A DNA stretch of 64,000 bases from Natronoarchaeum mannanilyticum (GTDB lineage Archaea > Halobacteriota > Halobacteria > Halobacteriales > Natronoarchaeaceae). Under the pieces are notes generated by a model, which was given only the letters and a program-made list of their open reading frames with translations, was not told where the DNA came from and searched no databases. The position numbers and the translations under genes are program-made. The DNA lies in assembly GCF_039522665.1 (NCBI RefSeq), contig NZ_BAAADV010000006.1:1-64000 (forward strand), given 5' to 3'. Below, piece by piece: positions 47,508 to 51,057 of the stretch; position 1 is the stretch's first letter; each line of letters begins with the position of its first letter.

Positions 47508-47689
47508 CGCTACGTGATTCACCGCAATATAACGCTAATAGGCCCTAATCATAGCGGTTGGCTAATAGAAGAGATACACACGAAGCTCGCGAATGCAGGT
47601 ACTATTATATGGGCGAGACCAGACCAATCTTGTAACATACGAAGCAAACGAAGTCAGGTTTTAAGTAGCATGTGAATAGTATACTGAAT

Positions 47690-48895
47690 ATGACGAACCC
47701 GTTCGATGATATGACGGATGACATTTTTGCTGATAAAAAAGTACTCACAGAGAGCTATCAGCCCGAGACGATTCTAGAGCGGGATGAAGAGATAGAGGAG
47801 TACCGCTACGCCTTGCAGGACGTGCTATTTGGCCGTGAGCCAGAAAACGTCATGCTGTACGGGAAAGCCGGACTCGGGAAAACAGCGGTAACGAAGTATA
47901 TGATGAGCGCTCTTCGAGAGGAAGTTCAGGAGCGCGAGCAAGCTGACGAGCTGTTCATCCACGAGATCAACTGCAACGGGAAGACCGTCTTCATGGTAGT
48001 CCGACAGTTGGTGAATACGTTACTACCAGAGAACGCTAGTCCGTTCCCAAAACGGGGCCTTGGAACCGGAGACGCATTCGAGGAACTCTATCGACAACTC
48101 GATCGTATAGGAGGAACGCACCTGATGGTGTTTGACGAGATTGATCATCTTGACGAGGTGGATACGCTGCTTTATGAGCTACCTCGGGCTCGATCGAACG
48201 GCCATATTTCGGAAGCGCAAGTGGGGATAATCGGCATCAGCAACAACTACACGTTCCGGAAGACGCTGTCGTCGAAAGTGAAAGACACGTTGATGGAAAC
48301 AGAAATCGCATTCAGCCCGTACGATGCGACCGAACTTGGGACGATTCTCAGCGATCGAGCGAACCAAGCCTTTGCCGAGGATACGTGCGACCAGTCGGCG
48401 ATCCGTAGAGCAGCGGCACTTGCGGCACAGGACATGGGGAATGCACGGCAGGCGATTGACCTATTGCGCGTCGGTGGAGAAGTAGCACTTCGGCAAGGTG
48501 CTAACCGCGTTACGGACGAGCACATCGGTGAAGCACGAGAACGTGTACAACGAGGTCGGCTCAAAAATAGGATTTCTGACCAGACGGACCACGCACAGTA
48601 CGTTCTCGAAGCGATCGCGTATCTCGAGCAGCGTGAAAAAACACCAGTTCGATCGAAAGAAATCCAAGACGTGTACGAAGAAGTTGCCTCAGCCTGCGGG
48701 GCCGATCCGCTGACGACGTTGAAGAGCATACAAGACCATCTATCAGACCTTCACATGCTTGGATTCCTCCATCGATATGAGCGGAATCAGGGCCTGAGCG
48801 GTGGTCAGTACTACGAGTACGAACTCAATCTCGATCCAGAGATCGTAATCGAAACGCGCAAGGAAATAGAAGGGCCAGCGGTTGACGAAAGGTAG
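47690..48895 (+). CDS. orc1: Orc1/Cdc6 replication initiator D
   Basis: 401-aa initiator with Walker A GKAGLGKT (about 58-65), Walker B MVFDEIDHLDEVD (about 145-157), sensor IIGISNNYTFR and a C-terminal winged helix (SIQDHLSDLHMLGFLHRYE). ATG 47690 (MTNPFDDMTDD) is chosen; a GTG at 47672 would add six residues. It has its own iterons on both sides and the parA locus on the 3' side, which together with the recombinase look like a complete replicon backbone. Confidence 0.95.
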   Translation: MTNPFDDMTDDIFADKKVLTESYQPETILERDEEIEEYRYALQDVLFGREPENVMLYGKAGLGKTAVTKYMMSALREEVQEREQADELFIHEINCNGKTVFMVVRQLVNTLLPENASPFPKRGLGTGDAFEELYRQLDRIGGTHLMVFDEIDHLDEVDTLLYELPRARSNGHISEAQVGIIGISNNYTFRKTLSSKVKDTLMETEIAFSPYDATELGTILSDRANQAFAEDTCDQSAIRRAAALAAQDMGNARQAIDLLRVGGEVALRQGANRVTDEHIGEARERVQRGRLKNRISDQTDHAQYVLEAIAYLEQREKTPVRSKEIQDVYEEVASACGADPLTTLKSIQDHLSDLHMLGFLHRYERNQGLSGGQYYEYELNLDPEIVIETRKEIEGPAVDER

Positions 48896-49145
48896 CACAC
48901 GAAATCTACTGTCTTCCCCTCCATATCGACTACCCGCTGTCTCGTCGAAAGCACACGAAATGTACTCTCTTTCTCTCGCAGTAAGCACCGTCACTCACGC
49001 GGTCGAAGTAGAAAGCACACGAAATGTACTGTCTCTCCCAGTAGGTACGGCTCTGGGAAGTCGAAAAAGCACACGAAATGTACTGTCTCCCTCTCAGTCG
49101 GCACGGTCCCCGGTAGGTCGAAAAGCACACGAAATGAACTATCTC
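48893..49145 (+). repeat. Origin D: five direct iterons
   Basis: AGCACACGAAATGTACTGTC-type copies begin at 48893, 48951, 49014, 49068 and 49124, at 54-63-bp spacing, in a larger repeated unit that also includes GTCGAAA before and a CAGTxGGCACGGT-like motif after. The first copy overlaps the orc1-D stop. Together with the inverted copies at 47423-47507 they frame the gene. Confidence 0.85.
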
Positions 49146-49174
49146 TCAGTCACCCAACAACCAGAGAGCCGTCG

Positions 49175-49951
49175 CTAGTCTTCCTTCCGCGCCGCCAGGA
49201 TCGCCTCCACCAGCTCGTCCTCGTGCTCGCTGGCCACCCGCAACACGGCGTCGTGGAACTCCCGCCCGGTCAGATCCCGGACGTCGTGCTCGGCCCGCAG
49301 TCGGGCGTCGACGAGCGCCTCGGCGTCCTCGAACTGCTGCCAGGCGTCCGAGCGGACGTACACCGAGTGCTGTTCGGTGTCGTCGAAGCCGAACGCCGAG
49401 CCCGCGATCGACGGGGCGGGCTCGTCGTCCGACGGTTCAGTCTCCCCCTCGGCGTCGACACTCTCCGGAATGTCCCCACTGTCCGCAATGTCCACACTGT
49501 CTGCAATGTCTGCACTTTCTACAATGTTTGAACTGTCCACACCATCTGCACTTTCCTCACCGCTCCCGACATCCGTCGTTTCCGATGCTCCCGCGCCGTC
49601 CGCAGTGTCTGACCTATCCATCTCTTGCCTCTCGACGTCCGCCGACGTAGCCGTCTGCGCTCCGTCGCTGTCCGTGCTATCCGTGCCGTCCGAACCGCTA
49701 CCGCCGTCCACGCTGTCTGAACTTTCTACAATGTTTGCACTGTCTGCACTTTCTGGAATGTCCGCAATGTTTGAACTGTCTACAATGTCTGCACTTTCCG
49801 AGCTTTCTACACCGCTCGTTTCCCCTTCGGCGTTCGCGCTGGCGTCGCCGTCTGTGGACTCGCCGCTCTCCGGCTCGTCGGTACTCTCTTCCTCCTCCTC
49901 GTCCTCGTCGACGGCGTCGCTCAGCCCGGCGAAGCGGTTCTCGTCAGGCAT
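49175..49951 (-). CDS. ParA partner: repeat-rich, candidate centromere-binding protein
   Basis: 258-aa acidic protein. Residues about 1-195 are Ser/Asp/Glu/Ile-rich with runs of the tripeptide-like unit ADI/ADS/SNI/VES, encoded by 9-bp DNA repeats. The C-terminus (about 195-258: HSVYVRSDAWQQFEDAEALV, then ELVEAILAARKED) has a strand-helix-helix pattern that could be a ribbon-helix-helix DNA-binding domain. ATG 49951 overlaps the end of parA and has GGAGG 7 nt upstream. Position and repeats suggest the DNA-binding partner of a type Ib-like partition system; no sequence family is recognised. Confidence 0.7.
   Translation of the reverse strand: MPDENRFAGLSDAVDEDEEEEESTDEPESGESTDGDASANAEGETSGVESSESADIVDSSNIADIPESADSANIVESSDSVDGGSGSDGTDSTDSDGAQTATSADVERQEMDRSDTADGAGASETTDVGSGEESADGVDSSNIVESADIADSVDIADSGDIPESVDAEGETEPSDDEPAPSIAGSAFGFDDTEQHSVYVRSDAWQQFEDAEALVDARLRAEHDVRDLTGREFHDAVLRVASEHEDELVEAILAARKED
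49459..49557. repeat. 9-bp repeat array 1 inside the parA-partner gene
   Basis: Eleven contiguous 9-bp units of the form (C/G/A)A(A/C)TGTCTG on the plus strand, for example CAATGTCTG, CACTGTCTG, GAATGTCCC. Read on the coding strand they give ADS/ADI/VDI-type tripeptides. The same unit occurs in the noncoding leader of parA. Confidence 0.8.
49711..49809. repeat. 9-bp repeat array 2 inside the parA-partner gene
   Basis: Eleven more contiguous 9-bp units (CGCTGTCTG, AACTTTCTA, CAATGTTTG, CACTGTCTG, CACTTTCTG, GAATGTCCG, CAATGTTTG, AACTGTCTA, CAATGTCTG, CACTTTCCG, AGCTTTCTA). The DNA unit stays similar between the two arrays although they are 150 bp apart. Confidence 0.8.
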
Positions 49952-50774
49952 CGGTGACACCTCCGTCCTGGACGACCGCGGCGAGCTCGTCGAGCCGATC
50001 GAGCATGTCGCTGTCGGGGTCGTAGGTGGCGAGCGGGACGCCCTCGCGCCAGGCGCGGCGGAACGAGATGCGCTCGCGGATACCCGGTCCCGGCGAGACG
50101 CCGAACTGGTCCGACCGGGCGAACTCGGGGAGATATTCGCCGAACTCCGAGTCCTCGAGGTCGCCGATGATGCGCTTTTCCTCGTTGTCGCCCGAGAGCT
50201 TGTTCGGGACGATCGCCGCGATGTCGATCCCGACCTCGCGGTCGATAGGGACGATCTGCTGGGTGTACATGCGCTCGAACCCTGACACGCTGGGCTCGGC
50301 CATCTGCAGCGGAACGATCACGTTCTGGGTGGCGATCAGCGAGGCGTCCGACAGCGGCCCGAGGTTCGGCGGCGAGTCGATCACGACGCGGTCGTACCCG
50401 TCCTCGACGAGCGGTTCGACGATCCGCCGACGGACCCACAGCTCCGCGAAGCGGGTGTTGCGGATCGTGTCAGCGACGGTGTCGAGGTCCTTGTGCCCCG
50501 GTAGCACGTCGAACTCCGTCTCGCCGGCGGCCGGGCGGATCACATCGCCCGGCGTCGTCGGATCGTCGTCGTCGAGCACGTGCCCGAGGTGGACGTCGGC
50601 CTCGTAGGCGTCGGCCAGTCCGACGCCCTCGGTCGCGTTCCCCTGCTGGTCGAGGTCGACCAGCAGTACGTCGTCGCCGCGGGCGGCGAGTCGCTCGGCG
50701 AGGTTGATCGCGATCGTCGTCTTTCCGACGCCGCCTTTCTGTAGCGCCACGCTGACTGCGTTCGTTCGGTCCAT
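49944..50774 (-). CDS. parA: ParA/Soj-type partition ATPase
   Basis: 276-aa deviant Walker ATPase for replicon segregation. It has VALQKGGVGKTTIAINLAER (deviant Walker A with the signature lysine, about 9-28), VLLVDLDQQGNATEG, VVIDSPPNLGPLSDASLIA (Walker B) and IVPLQMAEPSVSGFERM. ATG 50774 is chosen; the longer frame to 50849 covers the repeat-containing leader. It lacks an N-terminal DNA-binding helix-turn-helix domain, as in small type Ib ParAs, so the partner would repress the operon. It is followed by the overlapping partner gene. Confidence 0.95.
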   Translation of the reverse strand: MDRTNAVSVALQKGGVGKTTIAINLAERLAARGDDVLLVDLDQQGNATEGVGLADAYEADVHLGHVLDDDDPTTPGDVIRPAAGETEFDVLPGHKDLDTVADTIRNTRFAELWVRRRIVEPLVEDGYDRVVIDSPPNLGPLSDASLIATQNVIVPLQMAEPSVSGFERMYTQQIVPIDREVGIDIAAIVPNKLSGDNEEKRIIGDLEDSEFGEYLPEFARSDQFGVSPGPGIRERISFRRAWREGVPLATYDPDSDMLDRLDELAAVVQDGGVTDA

Positions 50775-50779
50775 CGTTA

Positions 50780-50824
50780 CAATGTGTGGAATGTCTGGAG
50801 TGTCTGGAATGTGCGCACTGTGCT
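50780..50824. promoter_or_regulatory. Five 9-bp repeats in the parA leader (candidate operator/parS)
   Basis: CAATGTGTG, GAATGTCTG, GAGTGTCTG, GAATGTGCG and CACTGTGCT lie in tandem from 6 to 50 nt before the parA ATG. The TATA-like ATTATATA on the minus strand is at about 50858-50866, so the repeats would be in the 5' leader or at the start site. They match the units in the downstream coding region. Confidence 0.7.
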
Positions 50825-50895
50825 CCGGTCGATACGTATCGATGCGCAACCAACTGGTATATAATTACCGCACGTGTGGGGACGAGACGCGCATA

Positions 50896-50923
50896 GAATG
50901 TCTACAATGTGTAAACATTGTAG
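50896..50923. promoter_or_regulatory. Inverted repeat of the parA 9-bp unit
   Basis: Arms CTACAATGT (50902-50910) and ACATTGTAG (50915-50923) form a perfect 9-bp inverted repeat around GTAA; GAATGTCTA (50896-50904) precedes it. It lies about 130 nt before parA, beyond the TATA box, and would suit a dimeric regulator binding the same unit. Confidence 0.65.
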
Positions 50924-51057
50924 TTCGGTGCAGATCGTTCGGTCGACCGCGGCGTCCCACCCGGAGATGCGAACGGTCGTCTCCGATCCGATCGTCGACC
51001 TCAGCCTCATCGATAATTCGTATCCACATTCCCCACCCCACGCTGTCGATCAGAACT

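Follow-up and report, generated by a model that had tools for sequence, protein, structure and literature searches.

A Haloarchaeal ParA-Type Operon With 9-bp Repeat Arrays in Its Leader and Inside the Gene of Its Putative DNA-Binding Adaptor

Gene Content and Layout of the par Locus

The stretch of DNA analyzed here (64 kb, hereafter the window) comes from a haloarchaeal genome of 3.57 Mb, in which it lies on contig C6 (75.6 kb). A replication initiator gene, orc1/cdc6 (47672..48895, plus strand; TIGR02928, 7.9e-124), adjoins a par module on the minus strand, and the two are also found side by side on Haloferax plasmids. The parA gene (49944..50774, minus strand, with its ATG at 50774) encodes a Walker-type ATPase of 276 aa that matches Pfam AAA_31 (2.7e-33) and CbiA. 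The P-loop lies near the N-terminus, the AAA_31/CbiA match starts at residue 6, and Pfam places no N-terminal DNA-binding domain in the protein. The NCBIfam ParA_partition model also matches, at 3.1e-20, which is under its curated cut-off. A TATA-like box read from the sequence (GGTAATTATATACC; 50855..50868, minus strand) is the probable parA promoter, and a TFB gene lies beyond parA.

Directly downstream of parA is the gene of a small partner protein, the putative adaptor (49175..49951, minus strand). Its start overlaps the parA stop, as it does in relatives. The partner is a single open frame that runs from the N-terminus MPDENRFAGL, through both of the repeat arrays described below, to a conserved C-terminal domain. 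The frame is unbroken through both blocks, and thus the intragenic arrays are coding. The N-terminus and the C-terminal domain (49178..49414, minus strand) are the parts conserved in relatives. The N-terminal motif MPDENRFAGLSDAV (49910..49951, minus strand) is kept in class-1 relatives (see below) and is a probable ParA-contacting tail. Between orc1/cdc6 and the partner gene, at 48897-49147, are about four repeats of approximately 56 bp with the core GCACACGAAATGTACTGTCTC. These are probably the origin repeats of the replicon and are of another type than the 9-bp units.

The 9-bp Arrays

About 22 of the 30 or so 9-bp units of the par region are inside the partner gene. Intragenic array 1 (49708..49806, minus strand) has about 11 units with the consensus ACAKTGYRG, and intragenic array 2 (49456..49554, minus strand) also has about 11. 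A leader array of five units (50775..50822, minus strand) lies between the probable transcription start and the parA ATG, and about three further units (TACAATGTTTACACATTGTAGACATTC; 50896..50925, minus strand) sit upstream of the TATA-like box. An earlier note on this DNA had described five units before parA and two blocks of 11 in the partner gene. The codon-by-codon layout agrees with that description, and the coordinates given for the arrays were right to within a few bases. All intragenic units stand in one frame, reading GAC or GAA, then ATT or AGT, then N-N-R.

Using a matrix built without the window, run scores were 41-44 in the two coding blocks and 23-26 in the leader (26 for the five-unit array). 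No six-unit run outside the par region scored above 15 in the 64 kb, and the maximum there of 8.4, against 44 in the arrays, excludes chance. A strict pattern of two units has five occurrences across the 3.57-Mb genome, each of them within these arrays. GC content is 45-49% in the array segments versus 69% in the remainder of the partner gene. The fit to the matrix of the relatives is imperfect, with most coding units carrying C, not T, at unit position 7, and 4/5 units of the window's leader likewise carry C there.

Relatives and Their Leader Arrays

Of 391 haloarchaeal genomes, 170 contain the C-terminal domain of the partner, which was also detected on 77 plasmid records. The family is annotated as "hypothetical protein" wherever an annotation is given among the matches listed. 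We did not find relatives among viral contigs and phage records. A total of 117 loci were collected, and parA was found beside the partner in 91 of them. As a motif-free test, autocorrelation was computed over the 400 bases before parA at 89 loci. It peaks at lags of 9, 18, and 27, with a lag-9 excess in 75 loci. Over the 5′ portion of the partner gene, relatives show no lag-9 excess on average, and only the window deviates strongly. The unit learnt from the leaders, with the window left out, is ACA-K-TGT followed by two bases. Leaders of other species contain 184 successive hits 9 bp apart, versus 4.8 in shuffles, and the leader array score exceeds 15 in 67/91 loci. The window's coding repeats are of the same type as the arrays before parA in dozens of related plasmids. 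In all seven of the named annotated plasmids, arrays occupy a large part of the gap before parA (720-1240 bp), and no arrays were found within the parA or partner genes of these seven.

Among the 91 operons, that of the window is alone in having an array within the partner CDS. A class-wide pattern search for intragenic arrays elsewhere matched ten genomes, and beyond the window's own genome no match was at a listed family locus. Tandem ACAGTG-AAG/CAG units are present at L145 (G185:C1:1916090), outside the family loci. At another locus (L096), an extra 9-bp array lies downstream of the partner gene and outside the CDS (minus strand, approximately 485-415), in addition to a leader array.

DNA-Level Constraint on the Coding Arrays

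The coding arrays were compared with synonymous recodings drawn with the codon usage of 37 neighboring long ORFs and scored with a matrix learnt only from the leaders of other species. Both arrays score above all recodings (z 6.0 for array 1 and 5.2 for array 2; 0/20,000 each), and thus constraint acts on the DNA. This test agrees with the earlier proposal that selection acts on the DNA, beyond the Ser/Asp/Ile peptide repeat. Codon choice within the arrays is skewed, with Ile encoded by ATT in 8/8 cases (11% in neighboring genes), Ser by AGT in 10/16 (7.7%), and Ala by GCA in 6/8 (7.4%). Unit positions 5 and 8 are third codon positions, and they carry T in 19/21 units and A or G in 21/21 units, respectively. 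The residue-changing positions 4, 6, and 7 vary across the 21 units. Fixed third positions together with variable residue-changing positions are the reverse of protein-level constraint.

If the Ser/Ile-x-Asp peptide repeat were instead the selected feature, the DNA repeat would be a by-product. In favor of this, the units keep the reading frame and yield an acidic peptide repeat, but the synonymous null contradicts it and the rare codons ATT, AGT, and GCA are found exactly where the DNA unit requires them. In addition, relatives have these units in non-coding DNA, and their linkers have almost no Ile and show no lag-9 excess. We consider this explanation scarcely credible. Open frames span the leader arrays of 56/65 relatives, a count that is uninformative because high GC content and the ends of the loci keep frames open, and a stop in the parA frame lies at or after the leader array in 54/65 relatives.

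The linker of the partner is 175 aa long in the window versus a median of 70 in relatives, and Ile makes up 5.1% of it versus 0.3%. Of the forward frames of ACATTGTAG, the one used reads Ile/Ser-x-Asp, another is interrupted by a stop, and the remaining one would give His-Cys-Arg. The acidic frame would be the one that a haloarchaeal disordered linker tolerates. A long and permissive linker, and an intragenic arrangement confined to one genome, would also suit a relic, i.e., leader DNA that was copied into the linker by recombination and is tolerated there without a function. Neutral drift, however, does not account for residue-changing positions that have diverged while positions 5 and 8 are held fixed against codon usage, a pattern of DNA constraint, and we regard a relic as quite unlikely.

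Repeat Class Follows the C-Terminal Domain

The partners can be sorted into classes by a few residues that precede the first helix of the C-terminal domain. Partners with [ST]-x-Y-V-R (class 1) have ACANTGT units in 59/59 cases, and those with P-[LI]-Y-[AV]-R (class 2) have CTATTG units in 17 of 18 assignable cases. The association is strong (59/0 versus 1/17, Fisher 4e−16), a figure that is inflated by shared ancestry. One repeat common to all relatives was ruled out, as class-2 partners have a different unit. Further partner subclasses (L124, L126, and L010) have other period-9 units before parA (GAATAGAAAGGATAG-like; AATGTAGAT-like).

The locus L111 is a natural chimera. Its ParA and its partner N-terminus are of class 1, with ParA sharing 70% identity with class 1 versus 47% with class 2, and its C-terminal domain and leader repeats are of class 2. 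L111 separates ParA and the partner N-terminus from the C-terminal domain, and thus the repeat tracks the C-terminal domain. From this covariation, the C-terminal domain is very probably the part of the partner that binds the repeats. Within it, the extended segment QHSVYVRS (49349..49372, minus strand) is a candidate DNA-contacting strand that differs between the repeat classes (SVYVR versus RPLYAR).

The array might also be a replication iteron of the adjoining Orc1/Cdc6 origin, given that orc1/cdc6 neighbors the par module both in the window and on Haloferax plasmids. Yet 5/7 annotated plasmids have the array and no orc1 in the stretch shown, the unit type follows the partner C-terminal domain, and the repeats at 48.9-49.15 kb that resemble an origin belong to the different, roughly 56-bp type. 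An iteron is very improbable on these grounds.

Predicted Fold and Known Partition Types

AlphaFold monomer predictions for 17 sequences give the C-terminal domain an extended segment followed by helices at 34-55, 62-75, and 77-90, with high confidence (pLDDT >90 over the folded part). The predicted order fits a ribbon-helix-helix (RHH) chain plus one helix, and RHH is a candidate label for it. We did not find an RHH match in Pfam for 17 family members, an hhalign comparison of the partner with the haloarchaeal RHH_1 profile gave a probability of <1%, a PDB sequence search with the partner returned no match, and neither did Foldseek on PDB and BFVD. The earlier comparison of the partner with the RHH proteins of type Ib systems thus agrees with the predicted topology and finds no match in any of these searches.

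Two traits of type Ib systems are seen, a Walker ParA with no N-terminal DNA-binding domain and a small adaptor directly downstream. The tandem short repeats at the operon are a candidate operator and centromere, on which the adaptor may activate ParA. "Type Ib" is likely to describe the mode of working and is not a demonstrated membership. A type Ia ParABS system with a CTPase ParB was rejected, as no ParB-family match to the partner was found in Pfam or NCBIfam. SegAB was also rejected, as 13-bp palindromes of the TCTAGA-S-TCTAGA type do not match a unit of ACANTGT with a 9-bp period.

The delta/omega/parS system of pSM19035 (type Ib) likewise pairs a Walker ParA with a small adaptor, and its centromere consists of 7-10 contiguous short repeats overlapping promoters (PMC9499535). 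It differs in being bacterial, in having a proven RHH adaptor, and in its 7-bp units, which are located in promoter regions (PMC9499535). The ParA-ParT-parS system of the Streptomyces plasmid SCP2 resembles the window in that a centromere site falls within the CDS of the adaptor itself, and this intragenic parS site of parT has been recoded synonymously (PMC12260392). That site, however, is a single 18-bp inverted repeat used by a ParB-like sliding protein, and no tandem array shapes a linker (PMC12260392). The SegAB system of Sulfolobales is another archaeal ParA with a small DNA-binding adaptor and sites upstream of the operon, but its 13-bp palindromes are scattered over the chromosome, mostly in unrelated genes, and SegB is a proven RHH protein (PMC12284271). 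No relation of the window's system to SegAB was detected in this analysis. In repABC replicons, parS sites are sometimes within coding sequences, but they are few and dispersed, they serve a ParB-type protein, and they do not form a tandem array in an adaptor gene (PMC9040568). Single intragenic parS sites are thus already known (SCP2 parT and some repABC replicons), whereas here it is a tandem array in the linker. In the open-access literature searched, we did not find a description of the haloarchaeal adaptor or its 9-bp array, nor of a tandem array occupying an adaptor's linker.

Proposed Mechanism

The locus is best explained as a ParA-type partition operon whose operator/centromere array has mostly moved into the disordered linker of the adaptor, a reading we consider probable. 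The repeats, the DNA-level constraint, the arrays of relatives, and the covariation with the C-terminal domain are shown by the computation, and binding, autoregulation, and partition by this putative system are inferred. The adaptor would have a motif at its N-terminus that contacts ParA, a C-terminal domain that binds DNA, and between them a long linker that is acidic and disordered. The C-terminal domain would bind and coat contiguous 9-bp units, each a 7-bp quasi-palindrome (ACANTGT) with a 2-bp spacer. Adaptor bound to the leader units would shut down parA, and adaptor on the long contiguous arrays would form a partition complex to be moved by ParA, which the Arg-containing N-terminal motif could reach via the linker. 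The intragenic units sit in the one frame that gives acidic Ser/Ile-x-Asp, a sequence of a kind that such a linker may tolerate.

The intragenic units could alternatively be binding sites for regulation only, as an operator or transcriptional roadblock, with the centromere in the leader or at a distant site. RHH-type partition proteins commonly autoregulate, and the leader units overlap the promoter and the 5′ leader. This alternative is doubtful, as 22 units in the second gene far exceed what an operator needs, and the window's leader keeps only 5+3 units where the 720-1240-bp gaps of relatives are largely filled with units. In a partition operon with a relocated array, we think that partition may take place chiefly at the coding blocks, with the leader acting for the most part as an operator, since pSM19035 needs at least four contiguous units to activate ParA (PMC9499535). 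The window has five contiguous units in the leader and about eleven per coding block. We lean slightly toward the further reading that most of the working centromere is dual-coding DNA in the gene of its own binder, with the linker peptide written by cis-acting selection and the leader retaining operator units only; the intragenic arrangement is known from one genome, and the relocation is thus a single case phylogenetically.

If true, these readings would establish which partition system a large proportion of haloarchaeal megaplasmids use, in which the adaptor is still annotated as "hypothetical" and the array lies in unannotated DNA, and would show clearly how the sequence of a protein can be dictated by a cis-acting array in the DNA. 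With two repeat classes and a natural domain swap, specificity and plasmid compatibility would be open to direct tests in the genetically tractable Haloferax. Where a genome in the set has two classifiable systems, their classes differ (5/5, including the window's own genome, on C6 and C8), as should be the case for compatible partition systems. The second par system of the window's genome (L002, on C8) is of class 2 and has a different 9-bp unit.
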